NCBI RefSeq assembly: GCF_003609605.1
Contig: NZ_MCHY01000008.1
Location: 744,001 to 808,000 of the forward strand
DNA: 64,000 nt
Source: Ammoniphilus oxalaticus
Lineage (GTDB): Bacteria > Bacillota > Bacilli > Aneurinibacillales > RAOX-1
Direction of reading: 5' to 3'
Shown here: piece after piece, positions 36,338 to 45,636 of the stretch
Layout: each line of letters begins with the position of its first letter
Numbering within the stretch: the stretch's first letter is position 1
The notes under the pieces: model-generated
Seen by the model: the letters and a program-made list of their open reading frames with translations, nothing else
Told to the model about the DNA's origin: nothing
Databases searched by the model: none
Program-made: the position numbers and the translations under genes

Positions 36338-37072
36338 ATGCTAGAGTCAAAACGAAGAGCGCTCATTTTTATCGGTTTGTCGATTTTGTTGGCGGCATTG
36401 GCTGGATTGATGTTTTTGCAAAAGGTCAAGGCGCTTAACGAACAACTTGGAGAAACGACGACGGTTTACATAGCAAAGGGGAGTATTCCTTCCCGCGGTT
36501 TAATTCAACCCGATAAAGTAACGACGATGGAGATGCCGAATAAATTCGTTACCAAGTCGTTCATCACCGATCCGAAAGAGTTGGCGAATAAAGTGTCGAT
36601 GGTTCCGTTGGCGGACGGCGATGTGATTACTAAAAACATGTTGAAACCGGTGGCAACAGTTAGCGACTTAAATAACCGACTCGTGTCTTTGTTTACATCG
36701 GACAAGGTCAGCTTTGATCAGGAGCTAGAGGCGCTTGATCGGGTCGATGTTGTCGTGTCTCATACGTTTCCTGGACATCCGACATCTGAAATTTTTATGA
36801 GAGATATTTCGGTGGCGATGGTTGCTAAAAGTGAGGGCGAGTTTAAAGGAGTCGCTTTGGAAGTGGCGTTGAATGACGCTCCAAGATTAATTCATATGCA
36901 AAATTATGCGGACCATATTCGAATTTTGAAATCGAACGTTGGCAATCAGGAGAGTAAAACTGCGCCTGAAGCAGAAACGCCTGCAGCCCCACCGACGCAA
37001 GTGGAAGGGGAGCCCGCTGCGCCAACACCGCCAGCTGATCCGCCCGCGCCAAATCCCGCGCCAGAAGGCTAG
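36338..37072 (+). CDS. cpaB: Tad pilus assembly protein CpaB/RcpC
   Basis: A membrane-anchored periphery protein of the Tad (Flp) pilus machine. After an N-terminal span (ALIFIGLSILLAALAGLMFLQKV) comes a SAF-like domain (VYIAKGSIPSRGLIQPDKVTTMEMPNKFV and ADGDVITKNML), the CpaB/RcpC hallmark. The 244-residue protein ends in a proline-alanine-rich tail (APTPPADPPAPNPAPEG) likely to lie in the wall. It heads the operon; cpaE follows after 29 bases. Confidence 0.85.
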   Translation: MLESKRRALIFIGLSILLAALAGLMFLQKVKALNEQLGETTTVYIAKGSIPSRGLIQPDKVTTMEMPNKFVTKSFITDPKELANKVSMVPLADGDVITKNMLKPVATVSDLNNRLVSLFTSDKVSFDQELEALDRVDVVVSHTFPGHPTSEIFMRDISVAMVAKSEGEFKGVALEVALNDAPRLIHMQNYADHIRILKSNVGNQESKTAPEAETPAAPPTQVEGEPAAPTPPADPPAPNPAPEG

Positions 37073-37101
37073 CGAAATCTAGGAGAAAGGACAGAGAGTT
37101 A

Positions 37102-38247
37102 ATGGCTACGATGAAAACAATCGCGTTATTGGCAGCAGATACGGAGTTGGCTCAATCGTTAGAGCAGCTATTAGAAGGACTTCCGGAAGAAACTCGCTTT
37201 CAGCATGCGCAAGAAGATCTACGAGAAATTCAACGAAACCAACCCGATATTCTTATATTAGGAAGCGCTCACCATGAAACAGCGATCGAGACCGTCCAAC
37301 AGTTTTTGACGCTCAATCCTTCGACCGTCATTTTCTATGTTTCTGAACGGAGCGATTTTTATGGGATGCGCGAAATGATGCGTGTCGGGGCAGCAGATTA
37401 TTTTGTGCTCCCAGACGAATACCCGTTGCTAGAATCAGCCCTAGAGAAAACCGTTCGCCTATTGAATCAACAAGAACAAGCGGCGGTGCCGAGCTTTAAG
37501 AAAGGGAGAGGTAAGGTGCTCGCTTTCTATAGTGGGAAAGGGGGGAGCGGCACAACGTTACTCGCTGCCTCGTTCGCTCAAACACTTCGTTTGGAATCAA
37601 CGGCAAGAGTGTTGCTGATCGATTTAAATATGCAATATGGCGGCGCCGAGTATTACCTTGGTCTAGAGAGTGTCCGTTCTTTAGCGGATCTGCAACCCGT
37701 CATCGAAGAAGTGAATGAAGGGCATTTGCGCAATGTGGCTCAGACGGAGAAATATTCGGGTTTAGAAGTATTGTTAAGTCCGCGTGACGCGGAGATGGCG
37801 GAACAATTGAATGATGAGTTTGTCGCCAAGTTACTGCGAGCCAGTCGCCTGAGTTACGATTATATTATTTTGGATTTGCCATCCAACATGAACGCGATTA
37901 ACCTCGCCGCCCTGGAGGAAGCGGATCGGATTTATTATGTGATGAACTTGGATACACCTTCTTTACGCACGTATAAATCTGTGGAAAGCTTGTTCCTTCG
38001 CTTAAATCTTCATTTGGAAGATCGGTTGGAAATCTTGATCAACAAGAAGAGTCGGGAAAACGAAATTACGATTCAAGACATCAAAAGTTTGGTCGAGCAA
38101 CCGATCAGTGTGGAATTAATAAGGGATGAACGGAATGTGCAAAAGGCGGTGAATATGGGCGAACCGCTTAGAAAAGAGGTGAATGAAAAGAAACTTGTCC
38201 CGCTAGCGCGCGAGATTCGTAAATGGGTCGCTGCGGTGATCGAATAA
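37102..38247 (+). CDS. cpaE: Tad pilus localisation ATPase CpaE/TadZ
   Basis: A MinD/ParA-type ATPase that positions the Tad machine. The 381 residues have an N-terminal receiver-like domain lacking a clear phospho-acceptor pattern (1-125) and a C-terminal ATPase. The latter has the deviant Walker A KGGSGTT (146-152, with Thr instead of the usual second Lys/Thr pattern), LLIDLNMQYGGAEYYLGL and YIILDLPSNMN. Between cpaB and cpaF, as in other Tad loci. Start ATG behind AGGAGAAAGG. Confidence 0.88.
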   Translation: MATMKTIALLAADTELAQSLEQLLEGLPEETRFQHAQEDLREIQRNQPDILILGSAHHETAIETVQQFLTLNPSTVIFYVSERSDFYGMREMMRVGAADYFVLPDEYPLLESALEKTVRLLNQQEQAAVPSFKKGRGKVLAFYSGKGGSGTTLLAASFAQTLRLESTARVLLIDLNMQYGGAEYYLGLESVRSLADLQPVIEEVNEGHLRNVAQTEKYSGLEVLLSPRDAEMAEQLNDEFVAKLLRASRLSYDYIILDLPSNMNAINLAALEEADRIYYVMNLDTPSLRTYKSVESLFLRLNLHLEDRLEILINKKSRENEITIQDIKSLVEQPISVELIRDERNVQKAVNMGEPLRKEVNEKKLVPLAREIRKWVAAVIE

Positions 38248-38261
38248 GGAGGGGGAAAAAC

Positions 38262-39596
38262 GTGTCACTTTTCAATCGTCGCGTGTTGTATGAACCGAAA
38301 CAGGAGACGGAGCCAGTAACCCACAATCCTTATCTGGAGGAATTGGCTCTTCACTATAAAACAAGGCTATTGAATGAATCCAATCTCGATTCGTTGACGA
38401 GCTTGTCACGCGGTGAGATGCGACTAGCGATTGAACGGGCGATCAGTCAGTTCATGCTCGAAGAAAAAGTTGTCATTTCCCGTATGGATAAAGAAAAGTT
38501 GTTATCCCGCCTGATCGATGAGTCGATCGGATTCGGTCCATTGGAGCCGCTGCTTGGCGATGAAGAGATTACAGAAATTTTGATCAATGGTCACAACGAA
38601 ATTTATATTGAAAAGAATGGTCAATTGCAGTTAACCGACATTCACTTTCGGGATGAGGCCCATGTGCGTCACATTATTGATCGAATTGTTGCCCCATTAG
38701 GGCGAAGAATTGACGAAAGTTCGCCGATGGTGGACGCCCGCTTATTTGACGGCAGTCGGGTAAACGCGGTCATTCCTCCCGTTAGTTTGAACGGAACGCT
38801 CGTCTCGATCCGTAAATTTCGCAAGGATCCTTTTAAGATGGAAGACTTGGTTGAATTTGATTCGATGGCGCCAGCGATGTCCCAATTTTTACAAGCGGTC
38901 GTCGCTTCAAAGCTGAATGTGTTGATTTCGGGAGGAACGGGCAGCGGGAAAACAACATTGCTCAATGCGGTCTCAGAAGCGATTCCCGATTTTGAACGAG
39001 TGATTACAATTGAGGACTCCGCCGAGTTAAGGTTAGATCGTCCCAATGTGATCGGGATGGAAGCGCGTCCGCCGAACGTGGAAGGCAGCGGGGAAATAAC
39101 AATTCGGCAACTTGTCCGCAACGCCTTGCGGATGCGGCCCGATCGGATCATCGTCGGCGAGGTGCGCGGCGCGGAAGCATTCGATATGTTGCAGGCGATG
39201 AACACAGGTCACGAAGGTTCATTAACAACCGTTCACGCTAACTCGCCCCGTGATGCATTAAGCAGGGTTGAGGGCATGGTGATTATGGCGGGGATGGATT
39301 TGCCTTCTCATGTGATCCGCGAGTATATCGTTGGGGCGCTCGATTTTATCGTGCAGAGCGAGCGGTTAACGGACGGGAAGCGGCGGATTGTGTCGATTGC
39401 GGAAGTTTTGGTCGATGAAGCGCAGCAAGTCCAGATCAATGAAATTTTTCACTTTAAAAGAACTGGGATGGATGCAGACGGGAATGTGATAGGTTCCTTC
39501 GAGCCGACAGGCATCATTCCGGCCTGCATTGAACGACTCGCCATTTTTGGACATGGAATCGATGAAGCGTTCTTCCGAGAAGGGAGTACCGCATGA
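38262..39596 (+). CDS. cpaF: Tad pilus secretion ATPase CpaF/TadA
   Basis: The hexameric motor that drives pilin assembly at the inner face of the membrane. The protein has 444 residues from a GTG start at 38262, chosen because AAGGAGGGGG lies seven bases upstream; the frame is open earlier, inside cpaE. Walker A SGGTGSGKTT is at about 223-232, followed by the Asp box ITIEDSAELRL, Walker B MRPDRIIVGEVRGAEAF and the His box TGHEGSLTTVHANS. All are intact. Its stop overlaps tadB (ATGA). Confidence 0.95.
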   Translation: MSLFNRRVLYEPKQETEPVTHNPYLEELALHYKTRLLNESNLDSLTSLSRGEMRLAIERAISQFMLEEKVVISRMDKEKLLSRLIDESIGFGPLEPLLGDEEITEILINGHNEIYIEKNGQLQLTDIHFRDEAHVRHIIDRIVAPLGRRIDESSPMVDARLFDGSRVNAVIPPVSLNGTLVSIRKFRKDPFKMEDLVEFDSMAPAMSQFLQAVVASKLNVLISGGTGSGKTTLLNAVSEAIPDFERVITIEDSAELRLDRPNVIGMEARPPNVEGSGEITIRQLVRNALRMRPDRIIVGEVRGAEAFDMLQAMNTGHEGSLTTVHANSPRDALSRVEGMVIMAGMDLPSHVIREYIVGALDFIVQSERLTDGKRRIVSIAEVLVDEAQQVQINEIFHFKRTGMDADGNVIGSFEPTGIIPACIERLAIFGHGIDEAFFREGSTA

Positions 39597-40519
39597 TCAT
39601 CGCCATCTTTTACGGCTTAGCGATTTTGTGCGCAATTTGGGGCGTGTATAGTTTGCTCGGCTATCGTTCTCAGAAACGAGAGTGGAGGCGAGCGATGGGC
39701 CAATATTACGAGCTGAACAATCAGCGGAAAAGTTTTTTGGTTGTGTTGGGGGATCGATTTGATCAAACTCCGTATGCGGAAAAAATGCGCGGGAAGTTAC
39801 ACCAGGCCAATCTGCCATTAACACCGTCTGAGTTTTATGGCATGTTGCTCGTGGGCGGAATGGGGATCGCCGTGGTGTCCACCTCAATGTTTCAGCTCGC
39901 TTTTCCGCTTAACGTCATGATTGCGGGCGGATTGATAGCCATTATTTATTTCGCGTTGTTCGCCATTCGAAAAAATAAGTACCAAGAACGTTTTGATGAC
40001 CAATTGTCTGAAGTTTGTCGGTTGCTTGGAAACGCGGCGCGCGCGGGAATGACGATCAATCAAGGAATTGAATTAGCGGCTCGTGAGATGGTTTATCCCG
40101 CTGGGGATGAACTGAAACGATTGGCTCACGAATTGCGTTTAGGCGTCGATTTTGAGCGAGCCTTAATCAATACGCAAAACCGGATTCCATCCCGTGACTT
40201 TAAATTGTTTATTGCCACCTTGCTTATTCAAAAACGGTCTGGCGGTAATCTGCACGCGATTTTGGATGAAATGTCTCAAACACTAGAAGAGCGAAAAATT
40301 TTAAATCAAACGATAAAAACGATGACGGCTGAACAACGGTATATTTCGTATATTTTACCTGCATTGCCGATCTTTCTGATTCTAGTGATGAATACGATTG
40401 TCGAAGGCTTTTTGAAACCGATCGCGACGGCGCCAGGCATGATCTTAATGGGACTGTTCCTTGCGGGATCGGTATTGACGTTTTTTCTGATCCGAAAGGT
40501 AACCAATATAAGGGTGTAA
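39593..40519 (+). CDS. tadB: Tad pilus inner-membrane protein TadB
   Basis: One of two type II secretion F-like membrane platforms of the pilus. The 308 residues have two spans near 85-125 and two near the C-terminus. They flank a cytosolic T2SSF domain with EVCRLLGNAARAGMTINQGIELAARE and LLIQKRSGGNLHAILDEMSQTLEER. Coupled to cpaF by a four-base overlap and to tadC by a four-base gap. Confidence 0.9.
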   Translation: MIIAIFYGLAILCAIWGVYSLLGYRSQKREWRRAMGQYYELNNQRKSFLVVLGDRFDQTPYAEKMRGKLHQANLPLTPSEFYGMLLVGGMGIAVVSTSMFQLAFPLNVMIAGGLIAIIYFALFAIRKNKYQERFDDQLSEVCRLLGNAARAGMTINQGIELAAREMVYPAGDELKRLAHELRLGVDFERALINTQNRIPSRDFKLFIATLLIQKRSGGNLHAILDEMSQTLEERKILNQTIKTMTAEQRYISYILPALPIFLILVMNTIVEGFLKPIATAPGMILMGLFLAGSVLTFFLIRKVTNIRV

Positions 40520-40523
40520 TAAG

Positions 40524-41459
40524 ATGGATGGATTGCTAATTGTTAGTACATTATTGTTTTGGCTGTTTAGCGCCCTTGCTTTGAAAGCGTGGTATGATTA
40601 TCGCCGCCAAAAACAAGCGTTAACAGGGCATTTGATAGATTTAGAAGAATTTAAGATCGATACGCTTCAAAAAGAAGAAACGCGTCTTTCCCAACTTTTC
40701 AAACGGTTGTTTAAATATGCGGATGATTTTTCTGCATTGGGGCAGCGCATTAACTTCTTTAGCGAGAAGCACGAAGTTGAAGACTGGCTCAGGAAAGCGG
40801 GCTATCCGTATGATCTGACGGTAGAAAGATTTCAAGGCATAAAGATTTTTGCGACGGTCGTTGGCTTCGGATGTGGACTTGTTGCCATTGTGTTAGGATT
40901 GCCGCTCGCTCATTTCGGTGTCATCTTTCTACCTTTAATCGGTTACTTTGGCGTGATTTTAACGCTTAAAGGAAAAGCGAAAGCAAGGCAAGATGAGCTT
41001 CGCTATGATTTACCTGATTTTCTAGATATTGTCAGCGTCAGTTTAAAGGCGGGAGTTAGCCTGGATGCGACGTTGAGGGAGGTGGTGAAATATTTCGATG
41101 GTCCGTTGCGTGAAGAGTTTATGCGGTTCAATCATGAAATTGAGCTAGGGGTTCCCAGAGAAGAGGCCTATCGAGAGTTATTGAAAAGAAATGATAACGA
41201 AGAGTTTCAGACGTTAATCAAGTCGTTAATTCAAGGCATGCAACTTGGTGTGCCAATCGCGACAACTTTTAAAATTCAGGCGGATGATATGCGGACGCTG
41301 CGCAGGGAACTCGTCAAAGAGAAAGCAGCTAAAGCATCCCCGAAGATTACGCTAATTACAACTTTTGTTGTCGCGCCGACCGCGATCATGATGATTGCGG
41401 GCCTCATGATTATCAACATGTTTTTCGGGGAAAACAGTTTGATGGATATTTTTAAATAA
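40524..41459 (+). CDS. tadC: Tad pilus inner-membrane protein TadC
   Basis: The second T2SSF-domain membrane platform. The 311 residues show LPDFLDIVSVSLKAGVSLDATLREVV and LIKSLIQGMQLGVPIATTFKIQADDMRTLRRE, standard for TadC, with terminal spans IMMIAGLMIINMFF and an N-terminal span. It lies between tadB and the pilin gene, as usual. Confidence 0.9.
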   Translation: MDGLLIVSTLLFWLFSALALKAWYDYRRQKQALTGHLIDLEEFKIDTLQKEETRLSQLFKRLFKYADDFSALGQRINFFSEKHEVEDWLRKAGYPYDLTVERFQGIKIFATVVGFGCGLVAIVLGLPLAHFGVIFLPLIGYFGVILTLKGKAKARQDELRYDLPDFLDIVSVSLKAGVSLDATLREVVKYFDGPLREEFMRFNHEIELGVPREEAYRELLKRNDNEEFQTLIKSLIQGMQLGVPIATTFKIQADDMRTLRRELVKEKAAKASPKITLITTFVVAPTAIMMIAGLMIINMFFGENSLMDIFK

Positions 41460-41487: not shown

Positions 41488-41700
41488 ATGAGAGTAGCAA
41501 TGAGAGATTCAATGATTAAATTATACGTGAAAACAACGGGCTATATAAGAAACCAGCGTGGGTCGCAAGCGTTAGAATGGATTGGTATCGCGGCAGTCAT
41601 TGTGATTTTAACAGGTGTCATTTCGACAGCATTTAAAAACCAGGGACTGGGTAATGATTTTAAAAAGAAATTCTCAGAATTCCTAGATAACATTGGGTAA
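41488..41700 (+). CDS. flp: Flp-type pilin
   Basis: The presumed major pilin subunit. A 70-residue protein with a basic leader ending in QRG, a processing site after Gly25 and Glu30 at the +5 position (G/SQALEW). A hydrophobic helix follows (GIAAVIVILTGVISTAF). Cleavage by a TadV-type prepilin peptidase is expected, but no such gene is in the window. AGGGATAC-type ribosome site with GTGGAGGG upstream. A terminator follows directly, which often limits readthrough so that pilin is made in excess. Confidence 0.85.
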   Translation: MRVAMRDSMIKLYVKTTGYIRNQRGSQALEWIGIAAVIVILTGVISTAFKNQGLGNDFKKKFSEFLDNIG

Positions 41701-41718
41701 TAGGACCTTACTCTGCGC

Positions 41719-41758
41719 GCAGCGGCGTTTCATCTACGGTTCGCCGTTGCGTTTTTTA
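41719..41758 (+). terminator. Terminator behind the pilin gene
   Basis: GCAGCGGCG and CGCCGTTGCG form a strong stem followed by TTTTTTATT. It divides the Tad locus into a machine-plus-pilin half and an accessory half. Confidence 0.88.
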
Positions 41759-41789: not shown

Positions 41790-43016
41790 GTGTTTAAAAC
41801 GTACAAAAAGTACATAGCAGCGCTTGCGGCCACGTTGCTCTTGGCCCTTCAACTTGTTCCTTCGATCGCCCTTGCCCAAAACGCTTGGTCAGGCAAAACA
41901 TGGGAAGGTGAGACATGGGAAGGCGAGACGTGGAACGGGGTCGATTGGGAAGGTAGTCCCCACCAGCTAGACAGTTGGAACGGCGAAAACTGGAACGCTG
42001 AAAATTGGAATGGCGAAAACTGGAATGGACAAAATTGGAATGGTCAAGGGAACAACACGATGTCAGGATTCCAAGGAAACTCCTTTCAAGGCAACTCTTT
42101 TCAAGGGGGGGTATTCCAAGGCGGTTCGTTCCAAGGTGGTTCTTTTCAGGGTGGAGCGTTCCAAGGAAATGGCTTTCAGCATAACGGCTGGAGCATGGAT
42201 GGATTTAGTGGTCAAAATTTTAATGGCGTAGGCAATGGGCCTTTCCTTGCCCACACAGGTTCTTCATTCGAAGGGAACGGGCCCGGTTCACTTGTCGCTG
42301 GGATCAGTGGCGCTCCAAAGGCAACAGCAAGCCAAGCAGAGCGCGAAACATGGAGTAATTCCGATATTGCTGAATTAGTCATTAACGACATCGGCGCGGG
42401 CACGATTGACTTGGTCGCTGGGCTAGCGGCATCTGAGGATGGAACAGGGCTTGGATCGTATTCACTATCTCGCGCGGGTCTGCTCGTCTCTGGATTCAGG
42501 GTATTTACGACCGGACATGAAGGAGCGCAGGCGATTGCCGATGTAGGTGATATTGGTGTTGGAAGCGCTGGCACTGTTGCCGCAATTAAAGAATTTAACG
42601 ATTTTAGGCAACTCGCTCAAGGAGCGGCAGGATCGCAAGCTGCCTCGCTAAGCCAAGCAGGCAATGTCACGCGCGCTGCCACTTCCACGGTTTCTACTTT
42701 ATCGAAAGTGAATGCCGTCACAGGAGCTGTCGGCCTCTATTTCTCGACAAAAAATTTCATAAGCGATATGAAAAATGTGAAAAACTCAACTGGAGAGGCT
42801 AAAACCGACGCGAAGATTGATGCTGTTGGCAGCGCGGCGGGGATGGCAATGAGCAGCGGCGCCATGCTGATGGCTGTTCCAATTCCAGCCGTTCAAGCGG
42901 TCGGCGCGGGATTGGTCGTAGCAGGCGGGATTGTTTCAGTTGGAGCGGCGGCCGTGAAATTCTTTAGAAGGAAGCCCGTTAAAAAGTTTTTGGGCGGACT
43001 ATTTGGCAAAGGATAG
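41790..43016 (+). CDS. Secreted aromatic pentapeptide-repeat protein of the Tad locus
   Basis: A 408-residue secreted protein that I cannot place in a named family. A signal peptide ends at SIALA (cleavage after residue 29). A first block of eleven five-residue repeats follows, with Trp at 33, 38, 43, 48, 53, 63, 68, 73, 78 and 83 (His at 58), mostly W-(N/E)-G-(E/Q)-(T/N). A second block has Phe or Trp at 94, 99 and every fifth residue to 144, mostly F-Q-G-(N/G)-(S/A). The pattern resembles pentapeptide-repeat solenoids, but with aromatics at the central position and bulky residues where small ones are usual. The C-terminus has glycine- and alanine-rich hydrophobic helices (about 335-392) and a basic end (RRKPVKKFLGG). 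GTG start behind GAAGGAGGAG. It sits between flp and the tadE/tadG genes, so it may be a pilus-linked surface protein. Confidence 0.75.
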   Translation: MFKTYKKYIAALAATLLLALQLVPSIALAQNAWSGKTWEGETWEGETWNGVDWEGSPHQLDSWNGENWNAENWNGENWNGQNWNGQGNNTMSGFQGNSFQGNSFQGGVFQGGSFQGGSFQGGAFQGNGFQHNGWSMDGFSGQNFNGVGNGPFLAHTGSSFEGNGPGSLVAGISGAPKATASQAERETWSNSDIAELVINDIGAGTIDLVAGLAASEDGTGLGSYSLSRAGLLVSGFRVFTTGHEGAQAIADVGDIGVGSAGTVAAIKEFNDFRQLAQGAAGSQAASLSQAGNVTRAATSTVSTLSKVNAVTGAVGLYFSTKNFISDMKNVKNSTGEAKTDAKIDAVGSAAGMAMSSGAMLMAVPIPAVQAVGAGLVVAGGIVSVGAAAVKFFRRKPVKKFLGGLFGKG

Positions 43017-43042
43017 ATTTGTTTTAAAAGGGGGAATGTCCC

Positions 43043-43870
43043 ATGCCGCGTAAATTAGAACAAACAGCAGAAAGACGTAAAAAACTACTGGAAAAAATAG
43101 AGTATTTTGCATATCAACTTGAATTGAATGGCGCTCGTTATCATCATGTTCTCTACTTGCGCTTTAACAAGCCGTCCGGCATTTTGATCGTTGACCAAGA
43201 TGGCCAAGCGGTGTCAAGGGAGTTAGCTAGACAAGTAGTCGCTCCAATTAACTACTACAATAATATCGCAAAAGGGGCCGGAACCGATTTGGTCCGCGAA
43301 AAAGACCGAGATGTGAAACCGATGGTCGATTTGCATCGAATCTTAACGCAACAGGAGGATGTCTTTATAGACACTCCTGTTGCCCAAGACTGTCAACGGG
43401 TTGTTCAGATGCTCGATTTGATATTGGATGGACAGCAAACATTGCGCCAGATTTTTGAAGATTTGAAAGCAATCGATATCGAAGCGCGCGATAAGCGGGG
43501 CTACATTACGATGCGGGATGTCGATCAATTTGTAGCCTTGAATGAACAGTATCAGTCCATTTTGTATCGCCAAGGAAAAGCGCAAAAAGAAACGTACGCG
43601 TCGATGGATGCGCTTGCGCGATTCATCAAGGAGCGAAAATCTTTGGTTCGCGAACATAAGCGGGCAATCGATGTGCTGGTCTCTTTTCAACATGCAAGCG
43701 TCAAAAAGACGCTTGATGAATCCTTACAAAGCTTTGAGCAAGATAAGCAAGGCAAGCGGCATCAATTTGCCGATGGGGAAGCGGGTGTGGCGCAAATGCT
43801 CGCATTATATAAGGAAAAAACGCAATATGAAACAGAACATGAACTATTTAAATTGCTAAGAAACGGATAG
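43043..43870 (+). CDS. Helical cytosolic protein of the Tad locus, unknown function
   Basis: A 275-residue soluble protein without a signal peptide. The first 100 residues are mixed alpha/beta (YHHVLYLRFNKPSGILIVDQDG), and the rest is mainly helical (QRVVQMLDLILDGQQTLRQIFEDL, MDALARFIKERKSLVREHKRAIDVL). It follows the aromatic-repeat gene by 26 bases with a GGGGGAATG-type site. Its place between a secreted protein and a membrane protein suggests a chaperone or adaptor for export. That is inference; no family is recognised. Confidence 0.7.
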   Translation: MPRKLEQTAERRKKLLEKIEYFAYQLELNGARYHHVLYLRFNKPSGILIVDQDGQAVSRELARQVVAPINYYNNIAKGAGTDLVREKDRDVKPMVDLHRILTQQEDVFIDTPVAQDCQRVVQMLDLILDGQQTLRQIFEDLKAIDIEARDKRGYITMRDVDQFVALNEQYQSILYRQGKAQKETYASMDALARFIKERKSLVREHKRAIDVLVSFQHASVKKTLDESLQSFEQDKQGKRHQFADGEAGVAQMLALYKEKTQYETEHELFKLLRNG

Positions 43871-43885
43871 AAAAAGAGGTGAGTG

Positions 43886-44572
43886 ATGATGACGACATTG
43901 CGAGCGGCCTTCCATTTTTATTCTCGCCATATTGAATATTTAATGATCCTCTCCTTTTCAATTTTACTGCCGCTCCTGTTTATTCAAGTGGGGGTTTCTA
44001 ATTACGTCTATCGCGTTTATCAAGGAACTCCCTTTACTTTTTTCGGTGATATCAGTAACAGTTTTTTCATGTTTTTTATTCTCGTGCTGGCCCAAATTCC
44101 ATTCATTCGCTACGTTTGGGGAGATTTGGAGGGCGAGGAAAGAAAATTGCGTTCCGCTTACTTAACATTTTTTGAACGCGGCTTGTCGATCTACGGGTTT
44201 GGAATCTTGTATGTGATTGCGACGATGCTTGGCAGTGTTTTATTCATCGCGCCTGGCCTGATTGTGCTGGTTTTCTTCTTTTTAACCCCGTACGTGTCGG
44301 TCATTAAGGATAAACCAGCGAGCAAAAGTTGGCGTGAAGCGGTTCGGTGGGGGAAACAAAAGTTTTTTCCGCTGCTCGGCATCGTACTTTTAATTAGCGT
44401 TGTGGATTGGCTGCTTGGTTTCGTGACGATGGTCGGGATTTCCATGGTGACGAAAAATTATGGGGCGATCCTTGGTTCACAGTTGCTAGTGAGTTTGTTG
44501 TGTTTCCCATTTTTAGTGATTTACATGACGTTACATTTTCAAAAATGGCTTGAGGACTCAGCGGGATTATAG
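43886..44572 (+). CDS. Multi-span membrane protein of the Tad locus
   Basis: A protein of about 228 residues with five or six spans, including MILSFSILLPLLFIQVG, FFMFFILVLAQIPFI and a Gly-rich APGLIVLVFFFLTPYVSVI. The cytosolic loop SWREAVRWGKQKFFPLLGIVLL resembles DUF975 or YciC-like membrane proteins. The start is one of two adjacent ATG codons behind AGAGGTGAG; I took 43886. It follows the helical protein by 15 bases and precedes tadE by nine, so the group is one transcription unit. Function is unknown. Confidence 0.7.
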   Translation: MMTTLRAAFHFYSRHIEYLMILSFSILLPLLFIQVGVSNYVYRVYQGTPFTFFGDISNSFFMFFILVLAQIPFIRYVWGDLEGEERKLRSAYLTFFERGLSIYGFGILYVIATMLGSVLFIAPGLIVLVFFFLTPYVSVIKDKPASKSWREAVRWGKQKFFPLLGIVLLISVVDWLLGFVTMVGISMVTKNYGAILGSQLLVSLLCFPFLVIYMTLHFQKWLEDSAGL

Positions 44573-44581
44573 GGGTAGGAA

Positions 44582-44980
44582 ATGTTAAAATTGAAGCAAC
44601 GATTGAAAGATGAAAAAGGGTCGGCGACACTTGAGTTTTTAGGGATGGTGCCTTACGTTTTTTTGATGATGTTGGTTCTATGGCAATTTCTCGTTTGCGC
44701 CTTTGCGGCGATCACCGTGCAATCCGCGGCGAATGAAGCGGCCAAAGTGTTTTCGACGACGAGCAGTGAACTTAAGGCTAAAGAGGCCAGCGGGAAAATT
44801 GTTAATAATTTAAAAAATGTGGCGTGGCAATATCATACGATCGCCCCGAATAGTGATGGGCGGCATTTTGAAGCGAAGGTCCAGATTCAGTTGAAGCTCG
44901 CATTTTTACCAAGTGAATTATTGGGGATGACGATTCCAACGGTGCCGATCAATTATGCAGTCGTGGGCAGGAAGATTTAA
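44582..44980 (+). CDS. tadE: TadE-like minor pseudopilin
   Basis: A minor pilin of the Tad machine. The 132-residue protein begins with a prepilin-type leader (KDEKG/SATLEF, cleavage after Gly13 and Glu18 at +5), then one hydrophobic helix (LGMVPYVFLMMLVLWQFLVCAF) and a short extracellular domain. Its stop overlaps the next start by one base. Confidence 0.82.
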   Translation: MLKLKQRLKDEKGSATLEFLGMVPYVFLMMLVLWQFLVCAFAAITVQSAANEAAKVFSTTSSELKAKEASGKIVNNLKNVAWQYHTIAPNSDGRHFEAKVQIQLKLAFLPSELLGMTIPTVPINYAVVGRKI

Positions 44981-45636
44981 TGATGAAGCGGCTCCGACAA
45001 GAAAAAGGCAGTGTGATGTTGTTCACTTTAGCGTTGCTGGGCGTCATGACATTGCTATTTGCCGTCATGCTGAACTTGGTAAAAATGTATACAGAAAAAC
45101 AACATGCTTCCAATGCGGCTGAGCAAGCGAGTCTTGCAGTCACTGCTGAAATATATCGGATTGTAAAAGAGGGAATCGACGAGGCGGATAGTTTAGGCTT
45201 GCTTTGCAGCGCAGATTTGCTGCCATGGCCAAAGTCGATGAATGAACAGATCCAGGAGAAAAAGAATCAGATCGCTGGGATCAGTTCAAATGCGGAATGG
45301 AGCGAACAGGAATTGTATCGAGCCGCGGTGAATGAAGTATTGCCGAGCAAGCTGCAAGATCCCAACTATATTTGCCTGAAAGAAATCATAGAGCGGAAAC
45401 TCTGGGATGAGAGGTCTCAGGTTAAATATGCCGCAGAAAAATTAATCGAAGCCGCGGGCGCGAAGTGGACAGAGACGGAAATTGCGTTGGATAAATACAG
45501 AGTCGAAGTGAAAACAGCGCGTGAGTATCGCGCGTTTAAATACGATGGTTGGGTGCCCGAGAACAAGAGAAACATTTATCAAGTCGGGAAAGGCCCACAC
45601 ATGGAATTTTTCAAATACGTGACGTGGCCATTGTAG
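44980..45636 (+). CDS. TadG/TadF-like pilus protein
   Basis: A 218-residue protein with a pseudopilin-like N-terminus (RQEKGSVMLFTLALLGVMTLLFAVMLNLV) followed by a helix (KQHASNAAEQASLAVTAEIYRIV) typical of the Tad_N/TadG group and an extracellular domain. The +5 residue after Gly10 is Phe, not Glu, so processing by the prepilin peptidase is doubtful. It is the last gene of the Tad unit, coupled to tadE by an ATG overlapping the TAA. A hairpin terminator follows. Confidence 0.75.
   Translation: MMKRLRQEKGSVMLFTLALLGVMTLLFAVMLNLVKMYTEKQHASNAAEQASLAVTAEIYRIVKEGIDEADSLGLLCSADLLPWPKSMNEQIQEKKNQIAGISSNAEWSEQELYRAAVNEVLPSKLQDPNYICLKEIIERKLWDERSQVKYAAEKLIEAAGAKWTETEIALDKYRVEVKTAREYRAFKYDGWVPENKRNIYQVGKGPHMEFFKYVTWPL

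Follow-up and report, generated by a model that had tools for sequence, protein, structure and literature searches.

What do three genes that belong to no pilus family do inside a pilus locus? The question is raised by a 64,000-nucleotide stretch of the Ammoniphilus oxalaticus genome (assembly GCF_003609605.1, contig NZ_MCHY01000008.1, positions 744,001 to 808,000 of the forward strand; hereafter the window, whose own numbering is used throughout). Its tad locus is of the Gram-positive type, with three extra genes on the + strand between the pilin gene flp and tadE. We call their products REP, a secreted protein of 408 aa consisting of a stalk and a C-domain (41790..43016), HEL, a soluble protein (43043..43870), and MEM, a polytopic membrane protein (43883..44572). 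Based on sequence comparisons, REP, HEL and MEM probably make up a toxin-immunity unit, part of a polymorphic-toxin system linked to the Tad pilus locus. Support at this level comes from their architecture, conserved order and association with tad genes, from swapping of the C-domain in relatives, from its fusion to an RHS protein and from orphan copies of HEL; toxicity, immunity, a membrane target and contact-dependent delivery through the pilus are what we infer from it.

The secreted protein REP

REP opens with a cleavable signal of the signal peptidase I type (41790..41876; read from the sequence, with a hydrophobic segment at residues 7–25), for which cleavage is expected after Ala29, between SIALA and QN. 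Two blocks of aromatic repeats with a strict 5-residue pitch follow: 10 Trp at residues 33–83, with one position skipped (41886..42038), and 10 Phe plus 1 Trp at residues 94–144 (42069..42221). The aromatic repeats total 21, and the blocks are separated by an 11-residue step, the single phase break. Identity at a lag of 5 residues is 0.45, whereas 500 shuffles gave at most 0.21. Synonymous differences among the repeat codons, and DNA arrays no more than 76–90% alike, show that it is the pattern in the protein that is maintained. The C-domain (residues 186–408, 42345..43013) is Gly/Ala-rich, helical and conserved in the family, as judged from alignment, searches, its occurrence on RHS proteins elsewhere and predicted helices. 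An initial annotation, made from the letters of this DNA, had described a secreted protein with a glycine-rich C-terminus, and our results agree. Its two phased blocks with a 5-residue pitch also stand, but its count of eleven repeats in each becomes 10 + 11, and the bulky residue that it placed two positions ahead of the aromatic is found in the Trp block (E, N, Q, K) but not in the Phe block, where that residue is mostly Gly or Asn.

An aromatic beta-solenoid had also been proposed for these repeats, and here structure prediction gave a different answer. In an AlphaFold2 (AF2) model of REP built on a 14-sequence alignment, residues 27–307 have a predicted local distance difference test score (pLDDT) below 50 and helices occupy residues 308–396; for the repeat region itself, where the alignment is thin and complexity low, pLDDT is about 35 and no secondary structure is predicted. 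In this model, a flexible or disordered stalk looks like a better fit than a solenoid. Pentapeptide-repeat beta-solenoids share the five-residue period, but REP has Gly two after the aromatic instead of a small residue two positions ahead of it, and it has neither a match to the Pfam pentapeptide repeat nor any predicted beta structure. The aromatic-stack or beta-solenoid reading was rejected on the strength of the AF2 model, which has no strands there, and of relatives whose stalks lack aromatics.

A REP search of 300 Bacilli genomes returned six relatives besides REP itself; each has a signal peptide followed by a repeat stalk and a C-domain, and each lies in a tad locus. Among REP relatives the signal peptide and stalk keep their position and a 5- or 6-residue period is usually kept, while the repeat letters change completely: WNGEN, APNWEQPNVQ, PGNMA, GINVE, PEVNP, YQAPE(K/R), YIPPDP and FPEAKP were all seen, and a few relatives have no repeats. 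Aromatics are replaced by Pro/Gly-rich 5- or 6-mers, and Trp-phased repeats of the window type recur in L063. REP, HEL and MEM have no significant family match in Pfam or NCBIfam, and PHROG and PDB likewise gave no family for REP; PDB profile searches with the REP C-domain and with MEM found no match. Neither a prepilin-type N-terminus nor a known tad family was found in REP with Pfam and NCBIfam, its signal peptide being an ordinary one.

C-domains and their carriers

Clues to the function of the C-domain come from its company in other genomes. In locus L134, one protein runs from an RHS-associated core (TIGR03696, 50.4 bits, cut-off 32.5) into a REP C-domain (88 bits; the profile was built without the L134 sequence), and a HEL gene comes next (1e-58); L132 and L118 likewise have an RHS core, then a REP fragment, then HEL. 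Conversely, in eight loci, the window's own not among them, other proteins carry the signal peptide and repeats of REP with a different C-terminus. In L113, the likeness to REP is 73% over 102 aa, after which the sequences diverge; the genes downstream differ and include other membrane partners. The alternative ends include Ntox44 (L102, 56.7 bits), a MafB19 deaminase (L133, 27.3 bits, cut-off 27) with Imm1 encoded downstream (26 bits, cut-off 22.4), a VgrG3-type C-terminal hydrolase (VgrG3-C, 146.5 bits; L096, from a Brevibacillus-family genome) and Mbeg1-like lipases (L081 and L082), and some ends in the eight loci match no known domain.

A second type of carrier is present in tad loci of relatives in which REP was not detected. 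Here Flp-type N-termini are mounted on large domains, giving proteins of 330–518 aa that begin like Flp pilins (L129:9629-10621, L129:13171-14274, L144:13638-15194, L145:2825-4015, L146:3832-4917 and L147:8985-9992). The L147 fusion has an RNase-like Cytotoxic domain (22.4 bits, cut-off 22), fusions in L129 and L144 have a PT-TG pre-toxin domain (25 bits, cut-off 23.5), accompanied in L144 by a sub-threshold EndoU match, and fusions in L145, L146 and L129 have lipase domains. The ends of the L144 Flp fusion and the L081 repeat-stalk protein are 57% identical over 322 aa, and thus one C-domain appears on both carriers, Flp and repeat stalk. Taken together, the RHS fusion, the swapped ends on REP's stalk and the Flp fusions argue that the REP C-domain is a toxin domain. 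As a separate observation, five lipoproteins of one family (about 265 aa) are encoded in tandem in L120:223-4495; by eye they resemble proteins beside the Flp-lipase fusions of L145 and L146, and they look like an immunity array.

Partner proteins and linkage to tad genes

Of 64 distinct REPs, 58 have HEL as the next gene downstream and four have MEM there, and REP and HEL duplicate together (three pairs in L069; two trios in L070 and in L102). Orphan-type copies also occur: 27 of 90 distinct HELs have no REP directly before them, and the related genome G001 has a further HEL, well away from tad genes. This combination of position and orphan copies is an immunity-gene pattern, and HEL is probably the cognate immunity protein. 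It has no hydrophobic segment, and AF2 predicts a four-stranded sheet with a helical bundle (pLDDT 88), for which Foldseek found no PDB or viral structure at E below 0.001 and PDB profiles gave no match; one marginal PHROG match is to a family of unknown function. Loci without HEL have the shortest C-domains, 191–217 aa as opposed to at least 220 aa in full-length HEL-linked REPs, although these loci are mostly of one clade. Within Brevibacillus, REP and HEL have diverged fastest of all genes in the locus, with mean identities of 45% and 44%, respectively, compared with 84% for TadA.

MEM has six hydrophobic segments, weak similarity to UPF0259 in 5 of 7 relatives and a syntenic position in related loci. 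It accompanies REP as well as another Gly-rich type of C-domain (L113, L072 and L144), and a by-eye reading of small numbers found no case of MEM directly after an enzymatic effector. By these patterns, MEM may be a membrane immunity protein, or more broadly a candidate immunity or delivery partner on the membrane side. A soluble partner followed by a multi-span membrane protein is what the initial annotation had anticipated.

For a wider count of REP, its C-domain profile was run against 399 Bacilli genomes, with TadA scored as present at E up to 1e-90. The C-domain was present in 45 genomes, representing 22 of 145 genera, and TadA in 142. TadA accompanied REP in 41 of the 45 positive genomes, as against 101 of the 354 REP-negative ones (Fisher p = 2e-16). 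The trio occurs in three genomes without TadA (G030, G257 and G719), and in G693 TadA is split. A phylum-wide search with the first REP profile found only the source genome among 398, which is weak evidence of absence given a narrow profile and a sample mostly outside the class, and no REP relative was found in plasmid records. Scanning named genomes for the MEM family, with an alignment of five relatives taken from seven, yielded 12 Brevibacillus loci, all with tadABC beside the cassette. The gene order in these loci is tadABC, flp, VWA lipoprotein, REP, (HEL), MEM, tadE, tadG, VWA lipoprotein, with duplications in L024. By comparative criteria, REP-HEL-MEM is a conserved, tad-linked cassette and not a set of core Tad parts. 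Linkage to tad was suggested from the outset and is borne out by the genome counts and by every Brevibacillus locus found; that the trio would always lie beside tad genes is true of most cases but not of the three TadA-less genomes.

Tandem repeats reach significance in 44 of the 47 distinct tad-linked REPs but in none of the 4 that stand alone, a difference that is suggestive only, as the four are related; two REP copies in L015 were counted as tad-linked because tad genes are present there. Stand-alone trios with non-repetitive stalks were observed in L065, L066, L073 and L080, in genomes mostly without TadA, where their neighbours are ordinary chromosomal genes (SpoIVB, dicarboxylate symporter).

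The remainder of the window locus, also on the + strand, is a conventional tad gene set, and the gene order places REP, HEL and MEM, none of them of a tad family, between flp and tadE as first annotated. Upstream lie cpaB, tadZ/cpaE, tadA, tadB and tadC (36338..41459, with starts at 36338, 37102, 38223, 39593 and 40524), assigned by Pfam SAF/ChapFlgA and AAA_31 matches and by hidden Markov model and blastp synteny with Brevibacillus tad loci. The flp gene (41488..41700) is an open reading frame for a major pilin of 70 aa with the motif QALEWIGIAAV and matches the flp of relatives. Between flp and REP there is a terminator-like hairpin followed by T6 (41717..41758; -21.3 kcal/mol, z = -2.5); its position right 3′ of flp would allow an excess of pilin over REP, HEL and MEM. 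Downstream, tadE (44582) and a tadG-like gene (44980) encode minor pilins (44582..45636; Pfam TadE and Tad above cut-off). VWA lipoprotein genes are missing here, unlike in Brevibacillus loci; a VWA lipoprotein of the tad-linked type is encoded elsewhere in the source genome (L030:9722-11122, contig 6 of G000), far from the tad locus and among unrelated neighbours. We also observed TadE-type minor pilins fused to wall-cutting domains, either Peptidase_M23 (E 1e-26 to 1e-36) or a 3D domain (L069:14909-15751, L117:1735-2568, L128:1239-2024 and L076:8123-8863). They are common in tad loci outside Brevibacillus and are possibly pilus tips that open peptidoglycan.

Proposed toxin delivery and its alternatives

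If REP-HEL-MEM is a toxin-immunity unit, REP would be exported by Sec and its signal peptide removed, leaving the repeat stalk at the N-terminus. The stalk would serve as an extended flexible spacer which probably spans the thick cell wall or binds the wall, the pilus or a VWA lipoprotein. The C-domain would be the part that is toxic to a neighbouring cell, and with its Gly/Ala-rich helices and cationic tail it is most likely membrane-active. HEL would act in the cytosol as cognate immunity protein or holding chaperone, guarding the producer before export, and MEM would most likely be a second immunity protein on the membrane side. That Tad itself delivers the toxin, as the linkage, the Flp-toxin fusions and the shared C-domain suggest, is a tentative step to which we give slightly less than an even chance. 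We are somewhat more hesitant about the general proposal that Bacilli use Tad pili to deliver toxins to neighbouring cells, with toxin domains placed either on Sec-exported repeat-stalk proteins or directly on Flp pilins and REP-HEL-MEM as the commonest effector-immunity set.

Several observations weigh against this interpretation. Since three TadA-less genomes have the trio, the pilus cannot be obligatory, and 101 of the 142 TadA-positive Bacilli genomes have no detectable REP. The position of REP is fixed across Brevibacillus, more like that of a stable part than of an exchangeable warhead, and seven loci, partly from one species, keep REP and MEM without HEL. Distances between REPs and between HELs showed no correlation beyond the TadA background (partial rho 0.09). 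The C-domain has no match among Pfam toxin families and is not known to have toxin activity; a strict GxxxGxxxG zipper is absent from the window REP and present in 23 of 50 relatives, where 18.7 are expected by composition, and is thus not enriched. Finally, RHS and REP were connected only by an iterated profile, the first, narrower one being blind to the RHS fusions, and the link therefore runs through intermediate relatives.

The best surviving alternative, which we nonetheless regard as unlikely, is that REP is a structural Tad accessory, anchored by its hydrophobic C-domain to the outside of the membrane, with the stalk standing in for the missing secretin as a collar or guide across the peptidoglycan, HEL as chaperone and MEM as membrane partner. 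A fixed position of REP in the Tad loci of Brevibacillus and several other families would follow naturally, as would tandem repeats in 44 of 47 tad-linked REPs and none of four stand-alone ones. It is harder to see why an accessory's stalk should elsewhere end in a deaminase, Ntox44, a hydrolase or a lipase, one of them with Imm1, why C-domain and HEL should also be found with an RHS protein, or why the trio should exist without TadA and most Tad-positive Bacilli lack a detectable REP. More doubtful is a surface adhesin whose aromatic pentapeptides bind surfaces or wall polymers, possibly together with VWA lipoproteins. REP is secreted, repeats are aromatic-rich and Pro-rich, and a VWA lipoprotein gene lies directly upstream of REP in 36 of 64 distinct cases, but no adhesin family was matched, the conserved elements are the C-domain and HEL rather than the repeat letters (aromatic here, PGNM-type elsewhere), and an adhesin gives no ready reason why a cytosolic partner should travel with the C-domain to an RHS protein. 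The initial annotation had considered an adhesin, a tip or a pore-forming part with partner proteins, and had weighed disordered repeats of a known adhesin family as the opposing outcome: the repeats do look disordered in the AF2 model, but no adhesin family was matched. Its pore-forming option comes close to the toxin reading, but an adhesin or tip is less likely, because toxin domains replace the C-terminal part on the same stalk. Least probable of all is a fixed membrane-sensing or pore-forming module that serves the Tad system's own function (e.g. sensing) with HEL as signalling partner, which would suit the stable retention of REP in Brevibacillus, the UPF0259-like MEM and the ties of VWA proteins to mechanosensing in other pili (PMC12607857), but not the orphan HELs, the RHS fusion or the swapping of toxin domains.

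Polymorphic toxin systems, as surveyed by Zhang et al. 2012 (PMC3482391), resemble what we describe in having a common N-terminal trafficking part, an exchangeable C-terminal domain, downstream and orphan immunity genes, and a version borne on RHS. They differ in the trafficking part, which here is a Sec signal with a stalk of 5- or 6-residue repeats, or an Flp pilin, encoded in a tad locus; a whole-word search of that survey's text found none of Tad, TadE, pilin, Flp and pilus. The LXG toxins EsxX and TelE, of the glycine-zipper kind (PMC12744356, PMC10434224), likewise have a Gly-rich hydrophobic C-terminal domain and orphan immunity genes. EsxX of Staphylococcus depolarises membranes, and soluble (ExiAB) and membrane (ExiCD) immunity proteins share the work (PMC12744356), just as one soluble and one polytopic membrane partner adjoin REP. 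The likeness that we note is one of architecture: REP has no LXG match in Pfam or NCBIfam, a Sec signal instead of type VII export and no strict zipper, and HEL does not match the DUF5085 family of ExiAB. The Kil system, a Tad-like killing apparatus of Myxococcus (PMC8460266, PMC12075869), also ties Tad to contact-dependent killing with variable tip modules, but it belongs to a Gram-negative predator with minor-pilin tips, and REP, HEL and MEM are not described there; the 2021 paper describing Kil had yet to identify its toxin. One paper mentions Flp pilins as bearing one toxin domain (PMC12605009), and for two subtypes of type VII systems a survey reported unexplained tad neighbours (PMC11217815). 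In open-licence papers, we found no description of the trio or of tad-linked toxins on repeat-stalk or pilin carriers, and earlier descriptions may exist. Polymorphic toxins are a known kind, of which the tad-linked version with repeat-stalk and pilin carriers is apparently new.

In Gram-positive bacteria, most of what is known about contact-dependent weapons concerns type VII secretion. Our results suggest that Tad pili in many Bacilli are equipped with an undescribed weapon set against neighbouring bacteria. If this is true, a widespread pilus usually filed under adhesion would be a second weapon platform in Gram-positives, with effector, immunity and membrane families that are all still unnamed. 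It would also be a Gram-positive counterpart to the Kil system of Myxococcus, and how a Tad apparatus kills would become directly testable in cultivable Brevibacillus species.

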